From contig NC_068575.1 of assembly GCF_025698545.1 (NCBI RefSeq), forward strand, positions 50,415,980 through 50,479,979: a stretch of DNA of 64,000 nt, in the 5' to 3' direction. The stretch is from Gossypium raimondii. Lineage: Eukaryota > Streptophyta > Magnoliopsida > Malvales > Malvaceae. Position numbers and translations under genes: made by a program. The notes beneath the pieces were generated by a model, which was not told where the DNA came from, searched no databases, and was given only the letters and a program-made list of their open reading frames with translations. Below, in pieces: positions 4,700 to 36,490 of the stretch (positions within the stretch are counted from its first letter, which is position 1; every line of letters begins with the position of its first letter).

Positions 4700-5646
4700 C
4701 TTTAAAGGCTTAAGGGTATCAAAAGCCCTCAAACTTTTTTAGAAAAAAAGCAATTAAACCCCCCCTTTTTTTTTACACTTAATTGGTACTTGAACTTTCA
4801 AAAGATTCTCAAACTTAAATTAAAAAAAAAAGCAATTAAGCTCCTGCTTTTTCTTTTTTTTTTGCACTCAATTGAATACTTGAACTGTCAAAATGCATCA
4901 AAATGACCCTTTAACCGTTAAAGTTAAGTGCCATTAATTTTTTTTTTCAATTAAAGCCACCCTATGTCATAACCACGGCGTGACATGTGGCACAAAAAAT
5001 ATAATAAATAAAAATAAATAAAAGTTATAAAATTATTAAATTTTAATAAAAATATATTAAAATAATTAAAAATTAGAATAAATTTATAAAAATTGAAAAA
5101 AATTATAAAAATTTATAAAGTTATAAGAAAAATATAAAAATGTAAATAAATATAAAATTCCTAAAAAATGTAAAATTTTATATTACATTTTTACGAATTT
5201 TATATATTTTTATATTTTTCTTACGGTTTAATAAAATTTTATACTTTTATATATTTAATAATTTTTACGATTTTTATAATTTGTTTTCTAATTTTAATAA
5301 TTTATATATTTTATTAAAATTTTATGTTTTTTTATAACTTTAATTGATTTTTATTTTTTCATCAGTTTTTGCCACATGTCGCACCGTGATTGTGACACGT
5401 GGTGACTTTAACTAGAAAAAAAATTAGGGGCGATTAACTTTAACGACCAAATGAACTTTTTGATACATTTTGACAATTCAAGTACCCAATTGAGTACAAA
5501 AATAAAGGGGACTTAATTACTTTCTTTTAAAAAATATAAGGAACTTTTTGATGCATTTTAAAAGTTTAAGTACCTAATTGAAAAATATAATTAATTACTT
5601 TTTTCTAAAAAAATTGAAGAATTTTAGACCCTTAAACCTTCTTTAA
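4700..5646. mobile_element. Foldback element / long-TIR MITE
   Basis: The two halves are inverted copies of each other. The left arm, with CTTAAGGGT near 4709, 'AATTGGTACTTGAACT' near 4781-4796 and 'CCACGGCGTGACATGTGGC' near 4973-4991, matches the reverse complement of the right arm, with GCCACATGTCGCACCGTG near 5368, 'TTCAAGTACCCAATTGAG' near 5477 and ACCCTTAAACC near 5629. The arms are roughly 280 bp each and flank a very AT-rich centre. No coding capacity is seen. The transcript of such an element would fold into a long hairpin. Confidence 0.7.
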
Positions 5647-10617: not shown

Positions 10618-13328
10618 TGTAACGACTCGATAGTCATAAGTGTCAGAAAGTGCATTTTCGAGACTCTGTTCCCGTAAATCAAACTTGTAAGTGAATTTGC
10701 ATGAATTAAGAGTAATTAGGTATGATAACTAAATTACATATAGGGTGAAAGTTGAATTATAGATTAAAGAATAATTAAAGGGACTAAAGAAGTAATTTTA
10801 CCATTGTTCTTTAGTAGGACGACATTAAGTAAGATATTTGTAAATTTATTATATATATTATAATATGAAATCTTAAGTATTAAGTATATATATTATATAA
10901 TAATAAAACAAAATTAGTAAAAGAAATAAAGAAAGACAAAAGCAAAACCAAAATTAAGAAAGAAAAAGAAAGAAAAAGAGAAAGAAACAGACACACAACG
11001 TTAGGGACTTCAAAGTTTCTAAGTTCAATTGGTTAGTCAATTTAGTCTCATTTTCTTGTAATTTATGTTTTTGAAATCCTAGAGTTAAGTATTATCCGAC
11101 CCATGCTAAAATTTTAGCATTGATAGCGTTTTAAGTGTTGTTAATGTTGAATAATTTTAGTATTAGGGATTCAATTGATAGATTTTTAAACTAGAAATGA
11201 AAAAGGATTAAATTGTAGAATAAATTTTAAATTTTGAGTAATAGGAACAAATTGTGAAAAATTTGAAATTTAGGGTTTAAGTGAAAATAGGAGTTAAATT
11301 TAGTTTAAAGTGGAATTTGTATGAAAATACAGAATTAATTGTAAAGAAATAAAGTTAGTCTCGGTTTAGGGACTAAATTGAAATTTAGGCAAATATTGAG
11401 TCAAAATTTAAAATATTCAATATGAAATTAAACTGTGTTATATTGATGAATTTTAATTGTTTTAATTCTGTAGCTAACGTCATGCCGGAATCCTCGACTA
11501 AAAAGGGGAAAGATAAAGTCGACATTGAATGGCTCAAAATTCTTGGTTTGTATTTCTATAATTCGAACTAAGTCGTAAAATTATTGCATTTTGATATCTT
11601 GCATATGGTAAGTATTGGAGGTGAGAACTATTGTGTTTTACAATTGAAATGGATTGATTCGGTATGTATGAATTTATTGAATTTATGTATATATGTGATT
11701 ATATAAAAATTTGATATTGGATATTAGTTATATTTGAAAATTAAAATGTAACCCTATTAACTGTATCGGGTTGAGTCAGATATAGATGGCATGCTATAGG
11801 ATAGGAAGAGTTCAGTGATTTCTTCGACTTCAAGTCGATGAGGCACTAGGTGCCAATTTACTTCAGTTTAACTGATTAGACACTGGTTGTCAAATTTATA
11901 TAGCGTTGGGCGCATATTACTTCGGATTATCCGATGAGGCATTGGGTGTCAAACTGGTGTGTTGGTTCGATCTGTGTATCTGTCCGACTATGTGAATTGA
12001 AAATGGGATAGTAATTTGAAACATGAAAATGAGATACATGAGTTATGTACTCCTGAATTGGATATGGAATGAATAATGTTATTGTTTAAATGATATGTGG
12101 ATCAAATTGTGAAAAGCTATTATATAGCAAGTGATGAGAAGTGAATATGGTATGAAATGATGTATTCATGAATTGAGTATTGAATAACTAATACCATTGC
12201 ATAAATAAATGTGGTTTGATATGTGCTTACAATTCAATTGTACATATTATATTATCTTGACATTAAATATTCAGATTATAGAAATACCACTGAGTTTTAC
12301 TCAGCGTACGATTTTATTTTTCTGTGCGCAAATTTGGTACTTCACTTTTGATCGCCGATTCAGCATCCAACAACAATCCCGAACTCAAATGTGGTGATGT
12401 TTACCTTTTGTTTCGGCATGTACCTAGGGTGTCTAAATAATAGTTATTTTGTGAATTGATTGTAAATGAGGTTATACGTTTAATATTGGTTTGATATATA
12501 TATAAACACGTGTTTGTTTTTGAAGTCATGTTATGGCATGGTAAATTGAACCAAATCTAGATATGTGCATGTGAATTTAAGTTACTGTTTAAGTGCTTAT
12601 GAACTAGGCAAAATGGATTGAATTTGGTATGTTTATAATTTGAATTTGAATGATGCTTTGATAATATGTTTTGATAATATAAATGTAGTACCAATGAGGG
12701 TACATTGGTTAGGCACTTAGGATAATTGTTTTGACATATTTTGAATATAATTGATCGTGTTTTGAATTGGTTATACGAATGGTTTTTGAGTTGTTTAATG
12801 CCCAAGCATGTAGGAAATGGTAAATTTGTTGTTTAGTGACTTGGCCGTGTGAGACACACAGCTAGCACATGAGCGTGCGAGGCCATTTCGAAAAGGTACA
12901 CAGCCTGGCACACGGGAGTGTGGTTTGGCCGTGTGACCCAAGTTAGAGAGTTACACGGGCATGGACACGGGTTGGGACACGACCGTGTGTTCCTATTTCG
13001 AATGCCCACACGGCCTAAGACACGGGCGTGTCTCTTGGCCATGTGAGTCACACAGCCTGGCCACACGGCTGTGTGAACCCTGCAGCTTTGAAAATTTTTA
13101 ATGTATTTCAAAAAAAATTTTGAGTTTCTGAATTAGTCTCGACTTGTTTCTAACGCGTATTTTGGGTCTCGAGGGCTCAAATAAGGGACAATATGTATGA
13201 GTTTGATTGATTTTTGACCTGAATATTATACGATATGAAATGTTTAAAATTTTTGTCTGTTTGATCTGTAAACTCTAGTAATGCTCCCTAACCCGGATTC
13301 GACGATGATACGGGTTAGGGCTGTTACA
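10618..13328 (+). repeat. Ty3/gypsy-type LTR, probably solo, about 2.7 kb
   Basis: It begins TGTAACGACTCG and ends GGGCTGTTACA, giving the inverted ends TGTAACA/TGTTACA shared with the LTR at 29635-36490. Its 3' part (12830-13328) lines up with 35900-36490, including palindromic ACACGG/CGTGTG clusters and the phrase 'TTGTTTCTAACGCGTATTTT'. A tandem block at about 11815-11960 repeats CCGATGAGGCA(C/T)TGGGTG-like units. No matching 5-bp target duplication was found (GGTTG against AGTCG), and no primer-binding site follows the end. It is therefore either a solo LTR with rearranged flanks or the terminus of a deleted element. The short Arg/Cys-rich frames inside are by-products of the palindromes. 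Confidence 0.7.
11815..11965 (+). repeat. Short tandem block inside LTR
   Basis: About three diverged units, each of the form TTCGRNTTATCCGATGAGGCA followed by CTAGGTGCC, CTGGTTGTC or TTGGGTGTC. This is internal tandem structure of the LTR, non-coding. Confidence 0.5.
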
Positions 13329-18612: not shown

Positions 18613-20586
18613 ATGAATCTGTCGTCGTGGTTTCGCCGCAGTGTTTCAAGGAACAGTAAAAACAACAAAAACCCACCAGATCAACCTCAACCCCACCACC
18701 AAGAACAAGAAGAATTACTTGGAATTACCCAACAATTAATCGATCATGTCAAGTCTTTTACTTTAGAAACCTTCAAGAATTTCCCTATCCAAGGTACTTT
18801 CCGTCTTTTTTTCTTTCGCTTTGGAAATTTCTAAAGAGAAAATTGGTTTGATTGAAGCTTATGGTGTTCAGATGATGGTGACATTGAAGCCCAAACTTCT
18901 TATAATGTGCGTAAAGATCTTTCTGATTGGCAAGAGCGTCATGCTGTCTTAGTGCTTTCTAAAGTGAAGGTTTGGGGTTTTTTTTTTTTTTAAACCTTTT
19001 TTCCTTCTTAATAATTTATAATTATTGTTCTATTCTTCTTCTTGTTTTCCAGGAACTTTCACAGCTTAATTATTGTTCTATTCTTCTTCTTGTTTTCCAG
19101 GAACTTTCACAGCTTAGATTCAAGTTATGCCCCCGCCATTTGAAGGAGGAAAAATTTTGGAGGATATATTTCATGCTTGTCAATAGTTACGTGGCTGAGT
19201 AAGTTTTACATTTTTTTCATGATAATTAGTAATTTAGAACAAGGAATCTGTGCATATATTGTTGCTTTGTGGATTTGAATCTGAGCTTGATTTTAGATGC
19301 CTATATGATATTGCCATTCTCTCATCAGATATATCCTTCAAACATTTGCCAACACATTCTTTGTATTGACCTTTCGTTTAGTGAAAAATTATTTCTTGAA
19401 AGAAATTCTTGAATTCTGTTTCACAATACATGCTTATTACATACATACTAGCATTTCGTGACAATGCACAAACGTATCCATTGTGTCGTTATACATGCAA
19501 ATATAGAAATTACTGTCAAAGTTAGCGCCAGCTGTTCGGAGATCTAAAGCCTGTTTAAGGATGCTAGTGGAGATCTGTAGAATGTAACGCCGTGATGTGG
19601 CTTTTCTTACGTCTTCAAGATGTCCTAAGCGGATATGTGATTTTGTTTGCTAGGGTTGCACCCGAAAGTTTGAATTAGTTTTTAGGGTGCTTTTTAGTTG
19701 ATTACTGATTTCTTTGCTGTCTTTAATCATGTTTGTTATGAATAGAACTGATATATCATGATTATCCTCCTATTGCACCGAAATGTATACTTTGTCTTGC
19801 ACAAGTAATCATGGTAAAAAAATAGAAGATGGAAAGTTTTATTTCTTGCAATTGAGAAAATAAATATGAAAAATGAAGTTCTTGTTTGAGTCCGATTTAT
19901 TTGAAATTTTAAAAAGAGATTGCATTAGTGAGACAATCTGTACCCAGTTCAATTATATATCAGTATGGATTAACTTCTTATGCCCTTATTTGTGCTATGA
20001 GAACCATATTTTTCAAACCGCGGAATTTATTTGGATAAAGAATTTCTTGGGAAAAAACAATGCCAACATTGTCAGTTTAATTGGAAATGTTATCATCTAT
20101 AAACCCGAACAAGTCAGTATATTCTGTTGGAAATTGAAAAAAAGAAGGTGGATAGTTCTTTTTGTCCTCGTCTGTGGAGAATGGAGGAGGGGCAGCACCA
20201 TTTCAAACATAGAATGGTACTCTTTTTCTTTATAGGAGGTGTTTGGCCCTTTCCAACATAGCACCATTGTTCTTTTAGTTTCCCCAAATAGCTCCATGCT
20301 TGTAAAGTTCTGTTTCCAAACAAGGTTGCTCTCCTTTTGCCTACTTGTTATGTAAGATTATTAGTTTCCATCTTAATCAAAGTTAATCCCTAATACATGT
20401 AAAACCAGATAAATCCAAGCTCAAATGCTTGTCTTTGTGTTTATCAGATACGAGCTGCATGCTATACAACGCGCTAAACTGCAAAGCATTGCTATGAAGG
20501 ATGAGAAAACACCAGATACCTGTGCGTATGAAGTTGAAATGGCCGAAAGAAATCAAGCAGATAGTGTTGCACCATCAACTCCATGA
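18613..20586 (+). CDS. BSD domain-containing protein
   Basis: Four exons, 18613-18793, 18872-18969, 19101-19198 and 20448-20586, join in frame to 171 codons plus stop, all with GT-AG introns. The N-terminus is basic and low-complexity (NNKNPPDQPQPHHQEQEE), then a helical segment follows. The BSD fold covers about residues 65-135, with DLSDWQERHAVLVLSKVKEL, FKLCPRHLKEEKFWRIYF and the conserved Phe-Trp pair. BSD domains (named after BTF2-like factors, synapse-associated proteins and DOS2) occur in the TFIIH p62 subunit and in small plant proteins whose biochemical role is unclear. This short form belongs to the latter, so nuclear or chromatin function should not be assumed. Exon 3 has two identical candidate acceptors because of a 48-bp duplication; using the upstream one adds 16 residues without a frame break. 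The gene converges on PRT1, whose coding region ends 1.4 kb downstream. I recall the same pair as near neighbours in Arabidopsis (AT3G24820 and AT3G24800). Confidence 0.88.
19021..19116 (+). repeat. Perfect 48-bp tandem duplication spanning a 3' splice site
   Basis: 19021-19068 and 19069-19116 are identical. Each copy contains polypyrimidine tract, CAG acceptor and the first 16 bases of exon 3 (GAACTTTCACAGCTTA). The acceptors end at 19052 and 19100. Choice of the first keeps frame (48 = 16 x 3) and meets no stop. Confidence 0.95.
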
Positions 20587-21998: not shown

Positions 21999-24942
21999 TC
22001 ATTCGACGGATACAGCACCAAGATCTTCATCCGACTCCTCATCTTCATCCTCCATGCTATCAATCTCTAAAAGCGATGCAGCTAGATTATTATTGCGAAT
22101 GTACTCTTGAAAAGCACTCGATAAAGCATAAGGTACCAGTCCATTTTCCAGATTTTCCGAAGCTTCGTCAAAGGCAAAAAAAGAAGAAGAACCACGATTC
22201 AGCCGCCCATACCTTCGGACAATGTCAGCAGGCTTTATAAGCTCAAGCTTATGCTCTGGGGTGTGTCTCTGGTTGAACCTGCCTGGAAGCTTCGGTCGAG
22301 TTTTAAAGCAATCTCCACAAAGGTCAAATCCTATTTTCTCTGTGCAATCCTTGCATTGGTATCTATCCCCGATTATTGGAGACATCTGCCAGTACAAACT
22401 CAAATATTAACAAACTCATTGCAGATTTTAATTAAAACCAAAAGGAAATAAATAAATATATAAGATTAGCAAAGCTTCATATTCTGCTAAGAAACTCTTT
22501 AAATACAAATTCAAATCTACTGCAAACTTAACTATGCCTTCATAACTTGCCTTGAATAAAATTCAAGCAATATTAATATACAGCAGATAGAAGTATCAAT
22601 TAGTTTAACTCTTCAAAGCAATAGAATCCTTCATCTTCATGCATTAGGTTAAGTAAAATGTTGCTTGAAATGCAGTGAACAAAATCCAACAAACACCGAG
22701 TTCTAAAGCATATAGAGAGCAACTTATCCTACGAAAGGGTCCCCTCCTCAAGAATAAAATCCTATTATTACAAATTTCCAATGCCGATAACTATCAATAG
22801 AAATTAACTAATTCATGGTAGAAAAAAAGAAGAAGAAAGGATACTAGCAAAAACAAGCATGTATATATATTTACAAATAATTTTAGTTAGGTAAAATAAA
22901 AACTAAAAGTGTTCTGAGAGGAAATAAAGGACGAAAGTTTTTAAAACTGTAGAATGGGCTATGTTATTTATAAGGATGAAATGAGAAACAGAAAAAACTA
23001 ATTATGAGCAAGCATGAAACCAAACTCAATTGAACTTTTAAAGAGACTAAATTGGTGTGGCTCCAGAACACACACATACATATGCACTCATATAAGAGAC
23101 AATAAGCAAAGCACTTACCCCACAAGCATCACAACCAACTCCTATATGTGTATGGGGGTGAGGCTCCCCTCCGGAGGGCAACTGGACAGGTGAGGAATCT
23201 TGTTTACCAGCTTCCGTCGAACCTAAAAATTTCAAACATAATAACTGCTCTAAAAATTGTGAACTCAAAAGTTGATGCAGCAGTATTGTAGTACGACCAG
23301 TTGGTCAGATTCTTTTCATGATCAATTTACCAACATGACTGAATAAGAAATTCTATATACATATATAATATGGATATTGAACTAGTAATGACATGCTTCA
23401 GTTTTAAGCTTAAAAAATGTGGCAATAAACCAAGCAGCACGAAAAAGGGTGGAACCAATAGTATTATACAGCTAACCACTAAATCAACGAAAATGTTAAA
23501 CTTGATAAACCTAGAACAAGATGGGATCAATGGCGCATTGAGACATACAAGTAGTTGGTTTCTCATGCTTGGAAGAAACTTGTTTGAGCTGAACAGCGTC
23601 TTTTCTCAGTGCATATTCTTTGGGAAAATTAGCCGCCAAAAACTGATCAAGTGTCAAGCAGACTTTTAAAGATCCCTTTGGATGCAAACATTGACAAACT
23701 TGACACCTAAGCATCTCATCAGGAGGGATGGCTATGCAAGTTTGACAATAAACTGCCAAAGAATAAATATAAGTTATAAATATCAGAAAACTGAGGCTTA
23801 ATGATGCAAATGTAAAGAAAAAAGAAGTAGTAGAGGAATACCATGGCCACAGTTAAGAACAATAGGACAAAAAAGCAATTGCTTGCAAGCAGTACAAAGC
23901 AGATCTGCAACTGAAACCTGATCATTTTCCTCCCTGGAAACACAAGACTGCTTTTGTCCAATCAGTACACTATGTTTCTCTTTGCCGGCAGAAGAATAGT
24001 CTGAAAGTGCGGAAGACTGCAACGAGCTTCTGAGGTGATTAATTTCTCCATCAGCCTCTGATTCACAAGCATGACGATTGAATTCCGGTGAGAAGTAGTC
24101 CAGTTTCTTTTCCTCATCTGTAGCAAAGATAATAAGTTTCATAATGTTGAACAGTATAGGTATAGTATTGCACTAGCTACAGTGAGAATAATCTCGAAAC
24201 TATCTACAATGATTCATCCCCACCACTAAAAAGTGTGGCAACATGAGCAGATTGTTCCAATGCAAAATTGAGTCACAGATTAGCCATAGGATAACTTCAT
24301 CAAATAAAATGTTCCCCTCTTAAAAGATTATGCTAAGTAGCAAAGCAAATATTTTAGTCGCCACTAAGCATAGCCATGAAAACATGAAAAATAAAAACAC
24401 CAAACTTACCGAGAACCTGCACTTCTCTTTTCTTATATGTAATGGGATATAATTTTAACAGCAAGAAGTGAAGCATTTCGCAGATGCTTGGAAAGTGAGA
24501 ATATGGATTTCTACAAACTGGACAATGAGACTCGTACCGAGAACTCATTGATCTATGAACACACCAGAAACACGATATATGACCACAATCTGCATATTTC
24601 GAGGGAACAAAGAAATTATTAAACTCATCAACAATAATAATTGAACATTAAAAAAATGAAATTCACAATTCTTTCTAGAAAACTAGCAAAAAGAAAAAAG
24701 AAAAAATCTTACGCAGAACGATGGGTTTGTAGAGAAGATCCCTAAAACAACATAAATGAAAAGAGAGCAGATTAGGTATTTTCCAAAAATCAAACGAAAG
24801 GATAAGATCACAAGAAACATTGAATTTATTTTATGGTAATCATAATTGCTTACAAACAAACGCAACAAACAAAATCGTCAGAAACTTGTTCAGCGTCAGG
24901 AGATTGATGATGTTCCATGGGAGAAGCTTGGAAGGAATCCAT
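21999..24942 (-). CDS. PRT1: E3 ubiquitin ligase, PRT1 type (N-degron pathway)
   Basis: Seven exons on the minus strand (24942-24854, 24741-24713, 24589-24410, 24117-23842, 23752-23549, 23222-23119, 22385-21999) give 422 aa; Arabidopsis PRT1 is about 410. Domain order matches PRT1. A first RING runs from about residue 26 (CCVCLDLLYKPIVL...CGH..CFWC...CPVC). A second RING follows in the middle (CTACKQLLFCPIVLNCGH, then VYCQTC and CQVC). A ZZ zinc finger comes near the C-terminus (GVGCDACG...YQCKDC...FDLCGDCF), then an acidic tail (MEDEDEESDEDLG). PRT1 is the plant E3 that recognises proteins with bulky aromatic N-terminal residues and marks them for the proteasome; the ZZ domain is the likely degron-binding part. 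The start is the first in-frame ATG, 75 nt before the first RING cysteine. The predicted leader contains a CCCA repeat whose complement can form a G-quadruplex. Confidence 0.93.
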
Positions 24943-24966: not shown

Positions 24967-24995
24967 GGTGGGTGGGTGGGTGGGTGGGTGGGTGG
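24967..24995 (+). repeat. GGGT tandem repeat in PRT1 leader, potential G-quadruplex
   Basis: Six GGG tracts separated by single T (70-72, 74-76, 78-80, 82-84, 86-88 and 90-92 in 249xx). This is the most stable class of parallel G-quadruplex sequence. It is on the + strand, which is the template for PRT1, and it starts only 25 bp upstream of the PRT1 ATG. The transcript would carry CCCA repeats. Confidence 0.9.
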
Positions 24996-25478
24996 CAAAA
25001 CACCAAATTGAACTCCTTTATAAACTCTCACCTTTCTTTCTTCTTCTTCCTTTTTACTTTTCAAACTATTTAATTGTATTCGAAAAACGGATCGATATAT
25101 ATATATATATATATCAGTTAAAGATTGATATTGCTTTGATGATTTAAGTAAATTCCAAATTCTGATTAATTAACCTTTTCTAAAAAATATCAGGAAAAAA
25201 ATTGAAAAACCTTTGACCGACATACTGATAATGCTGGATGTGGATATGGTCTTATTTTATTTCACAAGCTTAATCAACACAATGAATATTTAAATTATAC
25301 TCAATTCTTTTTATAAGAAGTAGTACTTAAAATATACATCCGTATTTAAAATAATAGTTAAATAATATTATGTTATTTAAATTATTTCGACCGTTAAAAA
25401 ATAAATTTAGCCAATCTTGATCATTTTAAAAAAAATATATTTAAAAATTTATAAACATATTAATCTCTTTTGTTATTC
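24996..25478. promoter_or_regulatory. PRT1 upstream region
   Basis: A pyrimidine-rich tract on the minus-strand reading (about 25020-25060, GAAGAAGAAGA-type) is typical of a plant 5' leader. A TA microsatellite at about 25094-25114 follows. The rest is AT-rich and runs into the 2.36-kb duplication at 25479. The transcription start cannot be fixed from sequence. Confidence 0.45.
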
Positions 25479-26989
25479 ATTCAAGATCACTAGTGATGAA
25501 ATGCTCATCAAACCGGTCCTAAAGTTGCTTGAACTGGACCGACTGATCAGACTAAGAATTAGTCAAGATATCGATTCGAAGAAGGGCATTGAACCACGAA
25601 CTAGTTGAACAGGTTTTTTTATTTTATTTTAGTTTTAATCAAACCAATGTCTTGATTGATTGGATCACCGGTCCAATTCTAAAAACATTATCCAAACCCA
25701 ATTTATGGCAACAAAACTCAAATTCTGGCGAGCTTCTATTCTTTAAACCTCGATTTTGATTTCAATTTCCTTCTCATCCTCAATTCAAAATCTATATATT
25801 ATTTTTCTTAAAAATAACTTTTTCCATTCTTTTCTATATATTTTGTATAATATTATTAATATTAGGTGAATTTTATAATAAAAATAGATAAAATATGAAA
25901 TCCAAATAAAAAAAAAGAAGTTGAATAAAAATTGGTAAGAGGATTAAAAAATCGATTAGTTAAAAAGTGCATTAAAAGAGAGAAAGAATCGTGGGGAGTG
26001 AGAGTGTAAAAAAAAAGTAAAAGTGTTACATTTGTAATGTAAATTCAGAAAAATGAAAATGAAAAAATTCATTGGAATTTGAGTTTTGTGTTTTAGATGA
26101 GTTTTTTTAATGGACTCTTGAATTTTGTATGAATATTTTTATAAATTTGTTTAAATTTTTTAAGGAAATAATAGTTTTTTTGAATTTTTAGTTAAAAATT
26201 TCAAGTGATACAAGATGAATTGTTTAGAGAATATTTTAACGAATGAGTAATTTAGGTAATAAAGTATAGTTCTAATACCACTTGTGATAAAAAAATTTAG
26301 ATATCAACTTAAGAAAATGAGTGTGGTTTAAGTGACATTTTGTGATTTAAAACTATTTTATAAGTAATATCATGAGAAAAATAAAAAATATATTTAAAAT
26401 ATCTATAAATATAAAATTATAAAAATCAAAATAGTTGTATAAAAAATTATAAAAGAATTTAAAATTATAAACAAATTACAAAAACTTAAAAGATAATTAT
26501 AAATTGTGAAAATATTAAATAATTTCCAAAAGAGAGATTTAAAATTAACCAAAATTATCAAAAATCAAAAGAATTTAAAACTTTCAAAATAATTTAGAAA
26601 GTTAAAAAAACTAAAAAATCAAAAGATAATTATGAAAAGAATCAAAAACAAATTCTTAAAATTATAAAATAAAATAATCCTTGCAAGTTTTAACCACATT
26701 CCATTCATTCAAAAGGATGTTAAAATACTTTTTTTTTTTTTGTTGGAACAAAAGAATATTAAGGTTTTGCATTGAAAAGGGCATGAATAAATTCCTTGTT
26801 TTTGTATGTGTTATCTCTGGACTGGTTTTGCTGCTTCCAATTTCATCTTTTTCATTAATGGCAGTTTTATGGGGGTGGAGGATGCCTATTTGCTTCTTAT
26901 TCCCGAACATTCTTACTTTTTATTTCTGCCACCATAATATTTTTAAAATTATAATTATTCTCAATTTTGATATTATTAGTTGAGAGACG

Positions 26990-27222
26990 GGGTCGCATGG
27001 GCGAAGCCAGAATAATATTTTAAGGGACCGAATGAAATTTTAATTTTTTATAGTCTATATTTTTATAATTTTTAAAGAATCAAATCAAATTTTTATAATT
27101 TTAGGGGAGGCCAAAGTGTAATTTTACTTTTACTAATTTAAAATTTAAGAGCCTCAATAATAATTTTCTATTTTAGGGGAGGTCGGGGCCCCTACCAGCC
27201 CCCCTAGATTCGCCTCTGGGCC
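26990..27222. mobile_element. MITE-like insert in duplication unit 1
   Basis: The left edge (GGGCGAAGCCAGA) and the inverted right edge (CAGAGGCGAATCTAGG) are imperfect inverted repeats. Inside are 'AGGGGAGGCC' and 'AGGGGAGGTCGGGGCCCC' patches seen in many plant MITE families. It is non-coding. The matching copy lies in unit 2 at about 29350-29581, where the left edge is more decayed. Confidence 0.45.
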
Positions 27223-27273
27223 TCGATATTTTAGCATTTAAATTTGAGTCTTATTATAAACAAATGCAAATGT

Positions 27274-27840
27274 TGTAACAACCTGTTTTCAAATGAAATC
27301 GAACAGTGGTTTCGAGACTACAAATCCAAGTCGGAGAAAATTTTATTTTATTATTATTTTATGGTTTACAATATGATAGAAATATCGTATAAAAATTTCG
27401 TTAAGAAATTTTACCGCTTATATGTCTAATTTGATAAAGATGACTAAATTGCATAAAGTGCAAAAGTTGAATTTTAGTAGCTAAAGGGACTAAAAGCTAT
27501 AGAATTTTAAATTGGAGGTCTTTATATAGCAAATAGACCATTTAGAGTAGTTAGTGGATAAGCATGATTATTCATCATTGAAATTTAATAACTTATTAAG
27601 GTTAATTTTGGAAATTTTAAAGATTTAGGTGATGATAATAATTATTTTATTATATTATCATCCATTCTCATTATCTTTACCAAAAAAAAAGATGAAAACC
27701 TTAGTCATGGAAGCTTAAGTTTTTAGGAAGTTTATTTTGCTAATTTAGATCTAGATAGACCTCGTATGAACTAGATCGAGGTAAAGAGAAAATATCGTTT
27801 AGTTGCCTCCGTATCTACATACATTTATCGAGGTAAGTTT
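27274..27840 (+). repeat. Truncated gypsy-type LTR, left 567 bp
   Basis: It begins TGTAACAACCTG and stops abruptly at the duplication breakpoint. It is the left end of the LTR at 29635 copied by the tandem duplication, so it is not an independent insertion. It has no right end. Confidence 0.85.
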
Positions 27841-30207
27841 ATTCAAGATCACTAGTGATGAAATGCTCATCAAACCGGTCCTAAAGTTGCTTGAACTGGA
27901 CCGATCGATCGACTAAGAATTAGTCAAGATATCGATTCAAGAAGGGCATTGAACCACGAACTAGTTGAATGGTTTTTTATTTTATTTTAGTTTTAATCAA
28001 ACCAATGTCTTGATTGATTGGATCACCGGTCCAATTCTAAAACATTATCCAAACCCAATTTATGGCAACAAAACTCAAATTTCAAGAGCTTCTATTCTTT
28101 AAACCTCGATTTTGATTTCAATTTCCTTCTCATCCTCAATTCAAAATCTATATATTATTTTTCTTAAAATAACTTTTTCCATTCTTTTCTATATATTTTG
28201 TATAATATTATTAATATTAGGTGAATTTTATAATAAAAATAGATAAAATATGAAATCCAAATAAAAAAAAAGAAGTTGAATAAAAATTGGTAAGAGGATT
28301 AAAAAAATCGATTAGTTAAAAAAGTGCATTAAAAGAGAGAAAGAATCGTGGGGAGTGAGAGTGTAAAAAAAAAGTAAAAGTGTTACATTTGTAATGTAAA
28401 TTCAGAAAAATGAAAATGAAAAATTCATTGGAATTTGAGTTTTGTGTTTTAGATGAGTTTTTTTAATGGACTCTTGAATTTTTGTATGAATATTTTTATA
28501 AATTTGTTTAAATTTTTTAAGGAAATAATAGTTTTTTTGAATTTTTAGTTAAAAATTTCAAGTGATACAAGATGAATTGTTTAGAGAATATTTTAACGAA
28601 TGAGTAATTTAGGTAATAAAGTATAGTTCTAATACCACTTGTGATAAAAAAATTTAGATATCAACTTAAGAAAATGAGTGTGGTTTAAGTGACATTTTGT
28701 GATTTAAAACTATTTTATAAGTAATATCAGTGAGAAAAATAAAAATATATTTAAAATATCTATAAATATAAAATTATAAAAATCAAAATAGTTGTATAAA
28801 AATTATAAAAGAATTTAAAATTATAAACAAATTACAAAAACTTAAAAGATAATTATAAATTGTGAAAATATTAAATAATTTCCAAAAGAGAGATTTAAAA
28901 TTAACCAAAATTATCAAAAATCAAAAGAATTTAAAACTTTCAAAATAATTTAGAAAGTTAAAAAAACTAAAAAATCAAAAGATAATTATGAAAAGAATCA
29001 AAAAACAAATTCTTAAAATTATAAAATAAAATAATCCTTGCAAGTTTTAACCACATTCCATTCATTCAAAAGGATGTTAAAATACTTTTTTTTTTTTTTT
29101 TTTGTTGGAACAAAAGAATATTAAGGTTTTGCATTGAAAAGGGCATGAATAAATTCCTTGTTTTTGTATGTGTTATCTCTGGACTGGTTTTGCTGCTTCC
29201 AATTTCATCTTTTTCATTAATGGCAGTTTTATGGGGGTGGAGGATGCCTATTTGCTTCTTATTCCCGAACATTCTTACTTTTTATTTCTGCCACCATAAT
29301 ATTTTTAAAATTATAATTATTCTCAATTTTGATATTATTAGTTGAGAGACGGGAAATTATGGGCTAAGCAGAATAATATTTTAAGGGACCGAATGAAATT
29401 TTAATTTTTATAGTCTATATTTTTATAATTTTTAAAGAATCAAATCAAATTTTTATAATTTTAGGGGAGGCCAAAGTGTAATTTTACTTTTACTAATTTA
29501 AAATTTAAGAGCCTCAATAATAATTTTCTATTTTAGGGGAGGTCGGGGCCCCTACCAGCCCCCCTAGATTCGCCTCTGGGGCCTCGATATTTTAGCATTT
29601 AAATTTGAGTCTTATTATAAACAAATGCAAATGTTGTAACAACCTGTTTTCAGTGAAATCGGAACAGTGGTTTCGAGACTACAAATCCGAAGTCGGAGAA
29701 AATTTTATTTTATTATTATTTTATGGTTTACAATATGATAGAAATATCGTATAAAAATTTCGTTAAGAAATTTTACCGTTTATATGTCTAATTTGATAAA
29801 GATGACTAAATTGCATAAAGTGCAAAAGTTGAATTTTAGTAGCTAAAGGGACTAAAAGCTATAGAATTTTAAATTGGAGGTCTTTATATAGCAAATAGAC
29901 CATTTAGAGTAGTTAGTGGATAAGCATGATTATTCATCATTGAAATTTAATAACTTATTAAGGTTAATTTTGGAAATTTTAAAGATTTAGGTGATGATAA
30001 TAATTATTTTATTATATTATCATCCATTCTCATTATCTTTACCAAAAAAAAAAAAGATGAAAACCTTAGTCATGGAAGCTTAAGTTTTTAGGAAGTTTAT
30101 TTTGCTAATTTAGATCTAGATAGACCTCGTACAGAACTAGATCGAGGTAAAGAGAAAATATCAGTTTAGTTGCCTCCGTATCTACATACATTTATCGAGG
30201 TAAGTTT
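27841..30207 (+). repeat. 2.36-kb direct duplication, unit 2
   Basis: Second copy, continuing without break into the rest of the LTR at 30208. Because this copy holds the junction with the complete LTR while unit 1 holds a truncated one, the LTR was in place before the duplication took place. Confidence 0.92.
29630..29634 (+). other. Target-site duplication AATGT, left copy
   Basis: AATGT directly before the LTR start and again at 36491-36495 directly after its end. Five bases is the expected length for LTR retrotransposon integration. Confidence 0.85.
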
Positions 30208-30373
30208 GTATAATTAAATTGTACATTAATATGTGCTTAATTGATTTGTTGTTTGTGAATTATACAATTGCCATGAATAAATACCGATTGTATATCTGAC
30301 AATTACCGAGTCTCGTTTGAACCGTAAGAATTCGTAAGATACAAATGACAATGTCATTAGAGTTACCGATATG

Positions 30374-30556
30374 TGTTAGAGTAAATGTTAAAGCATTTGT
30401 TTAGTTAATAGTTGGTTGAAAAGTTCAGGTTAGTTGAAGTCGGTTGTAGTCTGTTGAGGTAGTTAAGTACGTTGCCAGTGATTTGTGTATAAATGCATGT
30501 ACTGCTATTGAATTGATAGAATGAAAAAAGATGAGCATTCAGTATTCAGTTTAACA
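30374..30556 (+). repeat. Copia 5' LTR, 183 bp
   Basis: Ends TG...CA. Compared with the 3' LTR I count seven substitutions and one small indel where the 5' copy has ATTCAG twice. A TATAAAT motif lies near 30490. It is unusually short for an LTR. Confidence 0.9.
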
Positions 30557-30565
30557 TGGTATCAG
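30557..30565 (+). other. Primer-binding site (initiator Met tRNA)
   Basis: TGGTATCAG directly after the 5' LTR, complementary to the 3' end of plant initiator methionine tRNA. The match then breaks down. Confidence 0.8.
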
Positions 30566-30596
30566 TTGTTACATTTTTTTTCCTGGGGTTAGTTTC

Positions 30597-30845
30597 TTGA
30601 GTTTATTTGGTTTTTCATGGCGTTGCCTTCTAGTCTGTCAGCTATGTGGGAAGCCTGGTCATCTTGTTGATAGATGCTATTATAGATTTGATTCTTCATA
30701 TAAGAATATAGGGTACAGACCGTCTATGCCTCTACAAGCAAATCTTTGTATGTTTTGGCCTGGTTCTCCAGTGTTACTTTGGATGCTAATTTCAGTCCGT
30801 CGTCAGGTTGGTTTGGTTCTTCTCCACCAATTAACAGCTAGCTAA
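30597..30845 (+). pseudogene. Copia gag remnant with zinc knuckle
   Basis: The frame contains CQLCGKPGHLVDRC (from about 30636), the CX2CX4HX4C zinc knuckle of the nucleocapsid, followed by the copia linker DSSYKN. Nearly all of the upstream gag is missing: only about 70 bp separate the primer-binding site from this motif, where complete relatives have about 1 kb. This is an internal deletion. A frame break follows before the integrase part. Confidence 0.75.
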
Positions 30846-30949
30846 TCCGTTTGTTCATAATGCTTCACAATTTGGCAATTCTTCTTCAGCTGCTCCCTCG
30901 TCTCAGGCGTATCTTGCAACTCCTGCAATAGTGGCAGATAATGCATAGT

Positions 30950-33900
30950 ATCCTAACTCAGGTGCTACTCACCACCTCACGAATTCTGCTGCTTCTGTAG
31001 GTGAAAATGTGAATTACAATGGTCCAGGTAAAGTATATGTTGGCAATGGTTCTGCTCTTCCAGTTATGCTTACTGGTCAATCATCGTTGCTAACTCGATC
31101 GCGACCTTTGATCATGCGATCCTTATTATTTGTACCTGGCATAACAAAAAAATCTGTTGTCTGTATCCAAATTTACTAGAGATAATCAAGTGATATTTGA
31201 ATTTTATCCTACACAGTGCCTAGTTCGTGACCTAAAGACTAAGGAAGTTCTTGTTCGAGGCACGATGCATGATGGGCTGTACAAGTTAAGCTTGAATAAT
31301 TGCTCATCAACAGTGGTGTCCTCTGACTCAGCTCAATGTTTCCATACTACGATCACAGTGCCATTGAGTATTTAGCATGCTAGATTAGGTCATCCATGTA
31401 ATGAGACACTTAAGAAGGCTTTGAAACAATGTAATATACCGTTTGATGCAAATAAAGGTTTTCATTGCTGCATCTCCTGTCACTTAGGGAAGGAGCATAA
31501 GCAACCGTTTAACTTGTCTTTCTCTGAGTATGCTATGCCCTTACAACTGGTGGTTGCTGATGTTTGGGGACCAGCTCCAGTTTACTCAAATGGTTTTCAG
31601 TATTATGTTGCATTTGCTTATGCTTATTCTAGATATACCTAGGTCTATTTTCTGCAGAGAAAGTCAGAAGTTTCTAGTGTTTTTCCTCATTTTCATAGAC
31701 AAGTTGAAAGAATGCTTGGGTTTAAACTTAAATCCTTGCAAATGGATAGAGGAGGAGAGTTTCAAGTGTTGAAGAGTATCTGTCTCAACAGGGAATTGTC
31801 CAACGTTTTACATGTCCATATACCTCAGAGCAAAATGGACTAGTTGAGCGCAAACATCGTCAAATTGTCGAAGTTGGTCTCTCTATACTGGCTCATGCGT
31901 CTATGCCTGTCAGCTACTAGAATGATGCTTTCAGCAGTGCTATTCATTTAATAAACCGGCTACCACCATCTCCTTTGGGTGTTTCGCCATATGAAAAGTT
32001 GTTTCAAAAGTTACTAGCATATTCATTGTTTCAAGTTTTTGGATGCCTATGTTTTCTGAATCTTCGACCTTACAACAAGTCCAAGCTGCAATATAGGTCG
32101 ACGCCATGCACATTTTTGGGGTACTCTCAATGTCATCAAGGGTATAGGTGTCAAGCTAGCAACGATAGAATATATGTGCCACGTCATATGACATTTCATG
32201 AGATTGAGTTTCCTTTCAAAACTCTTAGTTCAAAGTCAGTGCATCCAACATCATCTTTGCGGTTTAGTTCCAAGCTACTTGTTGTGCCCTCAACCAGTCC
32301 AGCACATGTTGTTTCAACTGCTTCAACTACTCCAGTGCCTGCAGTCAATTTTGCTAGATCATTAAATACGAGTTCTGAGCCTCAAGTTACTTGTCCAGTG
32401 TCATCTCTAAGTGTCAGTACCAGCACTGATGGTCTGGTTCTGTTGCACCACACGTGTCACCTCCACCACCCTCTGCTCTTGTTAATTCACATGCAATGGT
32501 TATGCGTAGCAAGGCGGGTGTTCTTAAACCTAAGGTATACTTAAGTAAAACAGATTATACGACATATGAGGTCCCTATTACTATTTATGAAGTAATGCAA
32601 AAGCAATGTTGGCAAGAATCGGTTCATAAGGAGTTATAGACACTTCTCCAAAATAAGACATGGACGCTTTGCCCTCCACCTGCTCATCGGAAAATCATTG
32701 GCTGTAAATGGCTATTTAGAGTAAAAAAGAAGGCTGATGGGACAGTGGATAGGTATAAGGCACGATTGGTGGCTAAAGGATTTTCGCAGCATGCAAGTGT
32801 TGATTTTCGTGATATTTTTAGTCCAGTAGTTAAAGCAACGACTATACAAACTGTCCTTACCATTGTTGTCGTGAAGGGCTGGTCGTTAAGACAGGTTGAT
32901 GTGAATAACGCTTTTCTTAATAGAGAATTAACAGAAGAAATATATATGGAACAACCACCTGGATTTGAAGTAGCTAAAGACAATGGTCAGTAATTAGTTT
33001 GTCGTTTAAACAAAGCCTTGTATAGACTAAGGCAGGCTCCTCGTGTATAGTTTCAAACACTGAAACAATATCTAGTAGAAAACTTGAGGTTTCGAGCTTC
33101 GAAAGCTGATCCTTCGTTGTTTATTCGAACCTCCTCTGGGCAGTTGCTTTTACTTATGGCTTATGTGGATGACATAGTTGTAACAGGAAGCTCGGTTGCA
33201 GATGTAGACAAAGTGATTCGACAGCTTCATGATAAGTTTGCCCTTAAAGACATGGGTCAACTCAATTTCTTCTTAGGTATTGAAGTTCAACATGTGTCTA
33301 AGGAAATTTTGCTTAGTCAAAAGAAGTATATTTCAGTGATACTTCAAAAGATAGGAATGATGATAAAGATCACACCTACACCCATGGTCAAGACTCCAAA
33401 ATCGGTTCGCGCTGCATGCGATCCACCGCTTGTTGATGGTCATTTGTATCGGAGTGTTGTTGCCATGCTTTAATGCTTGTGTATTACACGTCCAGACTTA
33501 GCTTTTTGTGTTAACAAACTAAGTCAGTTTATGAACTTTCCGAGTGACACATATTGGAAGGTTGTTAAGCGAGTGTTGAGGTATTTTGTAGGGACAATAG
33601 ATCATGGTTTGTTCCTCACGAATGAGATGTTTGAGCTGGTGTGTTATTCTGATACTGACTGGGCTACTTCTATTGAAGATCGACGTTCAACCACAAGGTA
33701 TGTTGAGTATCTAGGGTCCAATCCGATTGCTTGGTGTTCCAAAAAGTAAGTCATTGTATCTATGTCCTCACATGAAGCAGAGTATCATAGTTTAGCTAAT
33801 TGTGTGTCAGAGCTACTGTGGGTTAAATAATTGCTGGATGAAATTGGTTTGCCACATTGTCAGACACCAGTGGTCTGGTGTGATAATACTTCTATAGTCA

Positions 33901-34080
33901 CCATGGCTGCCAATCCAACACACCATGCTAGAATGAAGCATGTAGAGATTAATCACCATTTTGTACGAGAGAAGGTACTTGATGGTGTTTTACAGGTCAA
34001 CTTTGTGCCATCTATAAAGTAAGTTACTGACGTTCTCACAAAACCTCTTCCACCAACACAGTTTACTGCTTTTCGATGAG
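30950..34080 (+). pseudogene. Copia pol remnant: protease, integrase, RT, RNase H
   Basis: In order: a degraded protease region with a GATHHLT-like motif near 30961; the integrase zinc-binding region (ARLGHP...CISCHLGKEHK, 31379-31503); catalytic-core pieces (VVADVWGPA near 31552, QMDRGGEF near 31741, NGLVERKH near 31836); a Pro/Ser/Thr-rich linker; reverse transcriptase (from KWLFRVKKKADG near 32708, with VDVNNAFLNREL, PPGFE and the active site AYVDDIV at about 33160-33180); and RNase H (CYSDTDWA near 33650, SHEAEYHSLA near 33770, WCDNTSI near 33870, LTKPLPP near 34034). At least eight in-frame stops or shifts interrupt it, for example near 31374, 31642, 31918, 32638, 32991, 33050, 33474, 33750 and 34022. 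It is non-functional. Confidence 0.9.
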
Positions 34081-34153
34081 ACTTGCAAGTTTGTTCTAGT
34101 GCCTTTGATGATGTTTTTTTCAAGTTTAATTTTTCCAATAAAATCGGGAGAAT

Positions 34154-34328
34154 GTTAGAGTAAATTTTAAAGCAGTTGTTTAGTTAATAGTTGGTTAAAA
34201 AGTTCAGGTTAGTTGAAGTCGGTTGTAGTCTGTTGAGGTAGTTAAGTACGTTGCCACTGATTTGTGTATAAATGCTTGTACTGCTATTGAATTGATAGAA
34301 TGTAAAAAGATAAGTATTCAGTTTAACA
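34154..34328 (+). repeat. Copia 3' LTR, 175 bp
   Basis: Partner of 30374-30556. About 4% divergence (seven substitutions counted by eye) indicates an insertion that is old enough to have lost its coding frames. Confidence 0.9.
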
Positions 34329-34344
34329 ATTTGGTTGGGGTCCT

Positions 34345-34531
34345 ACATGTGTTGCGGACACACCACCGCTCTCATGAGCTTCCCGATATTTAGCTCGCAT
34401 GAGCTTCCCGTTATACAGCTCGCATGAGATTTCCATTATACAGCTCGCATGAGTTTCCCGTTATTCAGCTCACATGAACTTCTCGTTATTCAGCTCAGAG
34501 GAGCTTCTCGTTTACAGCTCATATGAGCATA
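34345..34531 (+). repeat. 25-bp minisatellite, array 1
   Basis: About six to seven copies of a unit like CTCGCATGAGCTTCCCGTTA plus TTCAG, with substitutions. It is part of the LTR. A second array of the same unit lies at about 34985-35155. Confidence 0.85.
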
Positions 34532-34984
34532 CATGAATATGAATTAACAGATTACAGTTCAGTACACCTCAAGTGTACTACCTGTGTATCTAACGATATT
34601 CTAAATGGTTAAACGGGTACAGTTCTATTATGAAATTATATGAGATCGATATGAACTATTACTGGTATATACATGAAATTCATGAAATGTGAATACTTAA
34701 TGAATTCATCCATGTGTATTGAATCTTATATGTGACTTACATGGATAACATGTTAAGAATATGTGTTTAGACTTTTGGCCAAGTTGGTTTGGATGAATTA
34801 AATTGTACATTAATATGTGCTTAATTGATTTATTGTTTGTGAATTATACAATTGTCATGAATAAATAACGATTGTATATCTGACAATTACCAAGTCCCGT
34901 TTGAACCGTAGAAATTCGTAGGATACAAATGACAATGTCATTAGGGTTACCAATTTGGTTGGGGTCCTGCATGTGTTACAGACA

Positions 34985-35155
34985 CACCACCATTCTCATG
35001 AGCTTCCCGATATTTAGCTTGCATGAGCTTCACAATATTTAGCTCTCATGAACTTCCGGATATTTAGCTCGCATGAGCTTCCCGTTATATAGCTCGCATA
35101 AGCTTCCCATTATTCAGCTCAGAGGAGCTTCCCGTTTACAGCTCGTATGAGCATA
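34985..35155 (+). repeat. 25-bp minisatellite, array 2
   Basis: Same unit and a similar copy number as array 1, in the second copy of the LTR-internal duplication. Confidence 0.85.
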
Positions 35156-36490
35156 CATGAATATGAATTGACGGATTACAGTTCAGCGAGTGTACTACCC
35201 ATGTATCTAACGATATTCTAAATGGTTCAACGAGCACAGTTCTGTTATGAAATTATATGATATAGATATGAACTATTACTGGTATATACATGAAATTCAT
35301 GAAATGTGAATACTTGATGAATTCATCCATATGTGTTGAATCTTATATGTGATTTACATGGCTAACAAGTTCAGAATATATGTTTAGACTTTTGGCCAAA
35401 TTGGTTTGGATATGTTTGTATGCTTACCCTAAATGTGATTAAATGGTAAGTTAAATTATGTATTATACGAACTTACTAAGCTTAAATGCTTACTCAATGT
35501 TATTTTCCATGTTTTATAGTAATTCGGAAGCTGGTCGGAGCTATTTCACACTACCCATCAGCTCTTTTGGTACTTTTAGTAAATCAATATCGGATATAAT
35601 GGCATGTATAGGTTATTTTGAGTCAATGTTGGTATATAAATGTTTTGTTGAGGCAAGTCATTTGAATGACTTGTGTTGGTATATTTTAATGTATATTTAT
35701 ATAAGTGACTTGTCATGTTTGATGTGTGAGTGATATGGTAGAATGAAAGAAAGTAAAATATGGTTTGAATATGCATATATGAATTTTCTCATCTAGGTAA
35801 CTTGAGATACTTGGTTGACATGTTCTTAAATTGTCATTTGAGGTGCCTAAGGGCATATTGGTTGTATGTGGTAATATTTCATGTTTAAGACATGATTTTG
35901 GCTTGTTTTGAATGTCTTGTTATGGCTTATTGATATGTGAGAAATGTTCTATTTTTGTCCACACGAGCAGAGACACAAGCATGTGTCTCAGCCGTGTGTG
36001 ATACGCGATAAGGTGAAACGACCGCGTGTCCCCTATATCTTTAAAATTGCGCAAGTCAGTATGCTCAACACGGCCTAGCACATGGGTGTGTGACTTAACC
36101 ATGTGACCTAAGTCAGAGAGTTACACGGGCATGGACATGGGCTAGGACACTACGGTGTGTCCTTATTTCGAATGCTCACATGGCCTGAGACACGAGCGTG
36201 TCTCCTGACCGTGTGAGTCACACGGCCTGGCCACACGAGCGTGTGTCCCCTGCATCTTTGAAAAATTTTCATGTTTTCAGAAAAATGCTTTGAGTACCCA
36301 ATTTAGTCCCAACTTGTTTCTAACACGTATTTTGGGCCCCGAGGGCTCGTATAAGGGACATTATGTTTGATTTTGATTGATTTCTGATATGAATGCTATA
36401 TTATATGAAATGTCTGATTAATTGGTCTGTAAACTCCGGTAATACTTTGTAACTCTGTTCTAGCGACGGATTTGGATTAGGGGTGTTACA

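Follow-up and report, generated by a model that had tools for sequence, protein, structure and literature searches.

Introduction

Tandem duplication is reportedly a source of alternative splicing in human, to judge from the title of a 2007 PNAS study. To our knowledge, most tandem acceptor pairs arise otherwise than by exact copying. As a source of splice sites, tandem duplication is well described in the available part of PMC3443670. A plant example is the potato RdRp gene PGSC0003DMG402000361, where an intron is reported to have been gained by tandem duplication (PMC4974935, available part): the duplication spanned an intron-exon boundary and copied the pyrimidine tract and the acceptor, together with a putative branch site, and a cryptic GTAAG within the copied exon sequence served as donor for an entirely new intron, for which 106 RNA-seq reads are given in support.

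Tandem alternative acceptors are a related system, in which two nearby acceptors compete and the exon is extended (PMC6783452 and PMC2423196, in the parts available). In a designed library, consensus tandem acceptors were found to be used without preference for their order, unlike donors (PMC6783452), a result that comes from human cells. For plants, the accessible part of PMC3017782 gives YTRAY as the branch consensus and 18-40 nt as the range from branch site to acceptor, and its data suggest scanning for the first AG as in mammals. In the Arabidopsis gene RPT5b described there, a new putative branchpoint accompanies 12-25% use of the next AG, and the first AG remains the main site.

Here, we analyse a stretch of 64,000 nucleotides of Gossypium raimondii DNA (the window), in which a predicted BSD-domain gene carries a perfectly duplicated acceptor. 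The locus resembles the potato case as a plant tandem duplication over an intron-exon boundary that copied a pyrimidine tract and an acceptor (PMC4974935, as far as available), and it resembles tandem alternative acceptors in its two nearby, potentially competing sites and the exon extension between them; however, unlike these pairs generally, as the available parts of PMC6783452 and PMC2423196 present them, its two sites are natural duplicates without a single difference in 50 nt. A plant case of a duplicated acceptor was not found in titles and the openings of abstracts, a scope that does not establish its absence from print.

Results

Self-comparison of the window revealed 50 consecutive nucleotides that are identical at an offset of 48, positions 19019-19068 matching positions 19067-19116. 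TRF described the array as a 48-bp unit in 2.0 copies with 100% matches (score 196). On both grounds, copy 1 lies at 19019..19066 and copy 2 at 19067..19114 of the forward strand, identity continuing for 2 nt to 19068 and 19116, respectively. The first-pass annotation had placed a perfect 48-bp repeat at 19021-19116; the repeat is indeed perfect, but its left limit was drawn 2 nt short, the array extending over 19019-19116. The dinucleotide TA, common to both break ends, accounts for the difference between the 50-nt identity and the 48-nt unit, and the breakpoint is therefore uncertain by 2 nt. Among offsets of 20-200 this was the longest perfect run of the window (runner-up, 28 nt), and three simulated windows (order-1 Markov) gave longest runs of 12, 12 and 13 nt at the same offsets. 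Further copies of the 48-mer with up to 16 mismatches were not found on either strand of the window. The only other tandem repeat that TRF reported with 100% matches was a 4-bp microsatellite (24967-24995), and all remaining long-unit tandem repeats of the window were imperfect.

Larger repeats were also recorded in the window. A direct tandem duplication of 2.37 kb (25476-27840 versus 27838-30207) shows 98.0% identity. A copia-type retrotransposon region, with an RVT_2 match at 33051-33473, occupies 30204-35411; it carries direct repeats of 170-175 nt, whose halves have changed places on the right side (30204-30377 pairs with 34787-34960, and 30374-30543 with 34153-34322), and a duplicated block (34323-34794 and 34947-35411, 88%) that contains 25-bp tandem repeats. 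A dispersed repeat of about 346 bp is found in the same orientation at 12898-13243 and 36068-36413 (83% identity), and the sequence at 4855-5506, a large inverted repeat or palindrome (about 650 bp), is 77% identical to its own reverse complement.

The 48-bp duplication straddles the boundary between intron 2 and exon 3 in a four-exon BSD-domain gene on the forward strand, as predicted from GT/AG borders, an open frame and homology. The coding part of exon 1 would span 18613..18793 (GT/AG borders, open spliced frame) and exon 2 would span 18872..18969, ending at the donor AAG/GTTTGG (spliced frame, and an alignment to PDB entry 1x3a that runs ungapped over the junction). Exon 3 would start at 19053 or 19101 and end at 19198, its core being 19101..19198, and the coding part of exon 4 would run from 20448 to the stop at 20586 (20448..20586; spliced frame in both cases). 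The upstream acceptor, a CAG at 19050..19052 (+), would leave an intron 2 of 83 nt and yield a product of 187 residues; the downstream acceptor, a CAG at 19098..19100 (+), would leave an intron of 131 nt and yield 171 residues. In the spliced translations both choices stay in frame and reach the same stop at 20586. The duplicated acceptor and in-frame choice of 16 residues put forward by the first-pass annotation were thus borne out, with CAG at both sites and both spliced frames open; likewise, the extra 48 nt gained from the upstream acceptor (19053..19100 of the forward strand; T 50%, GC 31%) contain no stop and read ELSQLNYCSILLLVFQ, as had been stated. The donor looks like a weak match to the consensus, and splicing could be more complex than drawn here. 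An alternative donor 6 nt upstream (AAA/GTGAAG), also in frame, was not preferred because it would remove two residues that are kept in the ungapped alignment to human SYAP1.

Adjoining the BSD gene, an ORF on the reverse strand (21999-22406) matches the ZZ zinc finger at 21.9 bits, against a cut-off of 21.4, and seems to encode the C-terminal end of a ubiquitin ligase of the PRT1 type. In Arabidopsis, too, PRT1 (At3g24800) presumably lies close to a BSD gene (At3g24820).

The two predicted proteins match the Pfam BSD profile (PF03909) differently. The short form scores 45.7 bits over residues 76-127 (profile 4-56 of 58), and the long form 36.8 bits over residues 108-143 (profile 21-56), positions 21-56 of the profile remaining matched without interruption; both exceed the curated cut-off of 24.6 bits (whole-protein score). 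Among solved structures, the best relative is the human SYAP1 BSD domain (1x3a), to which the short form aligns over 37 residues with no gap across the exon 2/exon 3 junction (24.3 bits), whereas the long form requires one gap, part of the insert replacing the displaced residues (23.0 bits). Since the SYAP1 alignment is ungapped and the BSD score higher in the short form, the 171-aa protein looks to be the ancestral one. The insert falls within the BSD profile match of the short form, and its core, SILLLVF, has a mean hydropathy of 3.16, in agreement with the hydrophobic stretch inside the BSD domain that had been noted previously. From these comparisons, we conclude that the 16 residues would interrupt the N-terminal part of the domain. 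Matches to Pfam DLP_helical (18.5 and 18.1 bits, below the cut-off of 25.5) and to PDB entry 9fqr (E 0.15) were set aside as weak. A search of viral_contigs for relatives of the protein gave 32 pattern matches, none of which was confirmed, and megablast of the gene region against plasmids gave no match.

From -34 to +16, no base differs between the acceptors at 19052 and 19100, and models that consider only the local site therefore score both alike. The suggestion that they are equally strong holds for this local interval; it does not hold for their surroundings, where the branch-site matches differ. Each copy contains another AG, whose last base is at 19064 or 19112, 12 nt downstream of the acceptor and therefore in frame. 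In sequence, one donor faces two canonical AG acceptors with open frames, the arrangement of an alternative 3' splice site. In contrast to the potato RdRp duplication, GT is absent from the copied exonic piece (19053-19068), and between the acceptors it occurs only at 19075 and 19092, which leaves at most 26 nt to 19100. A new intron of the potato type between the acceptors was therefore rejected, and an alternative acceptor is to be expected instead.

Two YTRAY matches occur in 18970-19110, both reading TTAAT on the forward strand. The one at 19008..19012 (A at 19011) lies 41 nt before the upstream acceptor; the other, at 19066..19070 (A at 19069), lies 31 nt before the downstream acceptor and was created by the duplication junction itself. 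The looser motif YTNAY has five matches in the same interval, one of them being TTTAT, whose A at 19018 precedes the upstream acceptor by 34 nt. In a stretch this rich in T, 1.74 YTRAY matches are expected by chance and the probability of two or more is 0.53. Because two is about the chance number, we regard these candidate branch sites as permissive, and the second match was discarded as positive evidence.

Plant introns are UA-rich, and a shift in composition would favour the downstream acceptor. The 48 nt between the acceptors are intron-like (GC 0.31, T 0.50): intron 1 has GC 0.33 and T 0.45, intron 2 up to the first acceptor GC 0.23 and T 0.61, and exons 2 and 3 have GC 0.40 and T 0.32-0.33. 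In the first 48 nt past 19100, GC rises to 0.46, and the change to exon-like composition coincides with the downstream acceptor. Averaged over windows of 80, 120 and 160 nt, predicted folding did not clearly distinguish the acceptors (mean unpaired, first/second, 0.54/0.49, 0.49/0.40 and 0.44/0.44, respectively). A single 311-nt fold leans against the second acceptor and its branch-site match, with mean unpaired values of 0.38 and 0.18 at the first and second acceptor, and of 0.31 and 0.05 at the first and second branch-site match.

The perfect identity of the copies had been taken to suggest a recent duplication. This argument is weak, as zero differences in 50 nt only bound the age at about 4-9 million years: with an assumed 7e-9 to 3.5e-9 substitutions per site and year, the 95% bound is 4.3-8.6 million years for 50 sites, and 6.3-12.6 million years if only the 34 intronic sites are counted. 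As for the open frame, 524 of the 1266 overlapping intron 48-mers of the BSD gene are open in a given frame and one third of lengths keep the frame, so a stop-free, in-frame insert needs no selection.

Discussion

The structure of the locus could be explained by a single 48-bp tandem duplication, its break ends sharing a 2-bp TA. The copied segment would have comprised the acceptor with its pyrimidine tract and 14-16 nt from the beginning of exon 3. The spliceosome would now face two locally identical acceptors 48 nt apart. Choice of the downstream site would let the exonic piece of copy 1 leave with the intron, restoring the presumed ancestral 171-aa protein, and choice of the upstream site would lengthen the N-terminal part of the BSD domain by 16 residues. 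The duplication is likely an example of an already described origin of alternative splicing.

On balance, we lean towards a reading in which both acceptors are used, the ancestral form is a substantial product and the long form has no specific regulated function. Use of both sites, in whatever proportions, appears likeliest when composition, first-AG scanning, folding and the human library are weighed together. Each acceptor has an upstream YTRAY match, which we count for dual use, and the absence of an order preference among consensus tandem acceptors points the same way (PMC6783452, available part), although its origin in human cells lowers its weight for a plant gene. In RPT5b, the 12-25% use of the next AG alongside a new putative branchpoint fits dual use, but the first AG is still the main site (PMC3017782, in the part accessible), which speaks for the upstream acceptor. 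Also to be set against dual use are the chance-level number of YTRAY matches, the stronger pairing of the second acceptor and its branch-site match in the 311-nt fold, and the weak-looking donor. More tentatively, as a prospect that we hold to be worth stating but fairly unlikely, the branch site made by the junction may have given, in one step, a self-sufficient second acceptor and an isoform with an interrupted BSD domain, both isoforms being made appreciably.

Use of a single acceptor has to be weighed against this preferred reading. If only the downstream acceptor at 19100 were used, intron 2 would merely have become 48 nt longer and the protein would be unchanged. The intron-like composition of the 48 nt between the acceptors (GC 0.31 before and 0.46 after 19100) and the conserved protein, which corresponds to the short form, both fit this possibility, as does the junction-made branch-site match, whose distance of 31 nt lies inside the 18-40 nt range (PMC3017782, available part). 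However, the upstream acceptor has an identical tract and AG, with nothing disabling seen in the sequence, and it probably keeps its whole ancestral upstream context; moreover, in the longer (311-nt) fold it is the second site that is more paired. We consider exclusive use of the downstream site unlikely. Conversely, the first AG past the branch site may win, the acceptor at 19052 being used alone or in the main and the 187-aa protein being mostly made. Scanning for the first AG is suggested for plants (PMC3017782, as available), the 83-nt intron and its upstream context are retained, the 311-nt fold leaves the first site more often unpaired, and the insert can in part replace the displaced residues in the SYAP1 alignment (23.0 versus 24.3 bits). 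Yet this choice would break a conserved BSD spacing, with a fall from 45.7 to 36.8 bits, and a candidate branch site of its own precedes the downstream acceptor, which makes predominance of the upstream acceptor, in our judgement, decidedly improbable.

The remaining explanations concern the copy itself and its meaning. The second copy might be an assembly error, in line with the perfect identity of the copies; however, the unit is absent elsewhere in the window, the other long-unit tandem repeats of the window are imperfect, and small exact expansions are rarer as assembly errors than collapses, so that we hold an error to be very improbable. Least probable, with hardly any weight in our assessment, is regulated switching between the isoforms, the long one having been selected for some role, for example in weakening binding by the BSD domain. 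An insert that keeps the frame without a stop, has a strongly hydrophobic core (SILLLVF) and lies inside the domain match would suit such a switch; against this, an open in-frame 48 nt needs no selection, as the intron 48-mers indicate, and the two copies are identical, with no sign yet of selection on either.

Dual use of the acceptors thus remains our preferred reading. As an illustration of how an alternative isoform may originate in one step, the duplication is an example and not a new principle. Because a single native plant gene here offers two acceptors that match over 50 nt, effects of position are separated from local strength, and junction counts at this pair would allow first-AG scanning to be weighed against composition-guided choice in plants. 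If the junction did make a branch site and both isoforms are produced, the locus would provide a natural experiment on acceptor choice in plants when the two sites are identical.
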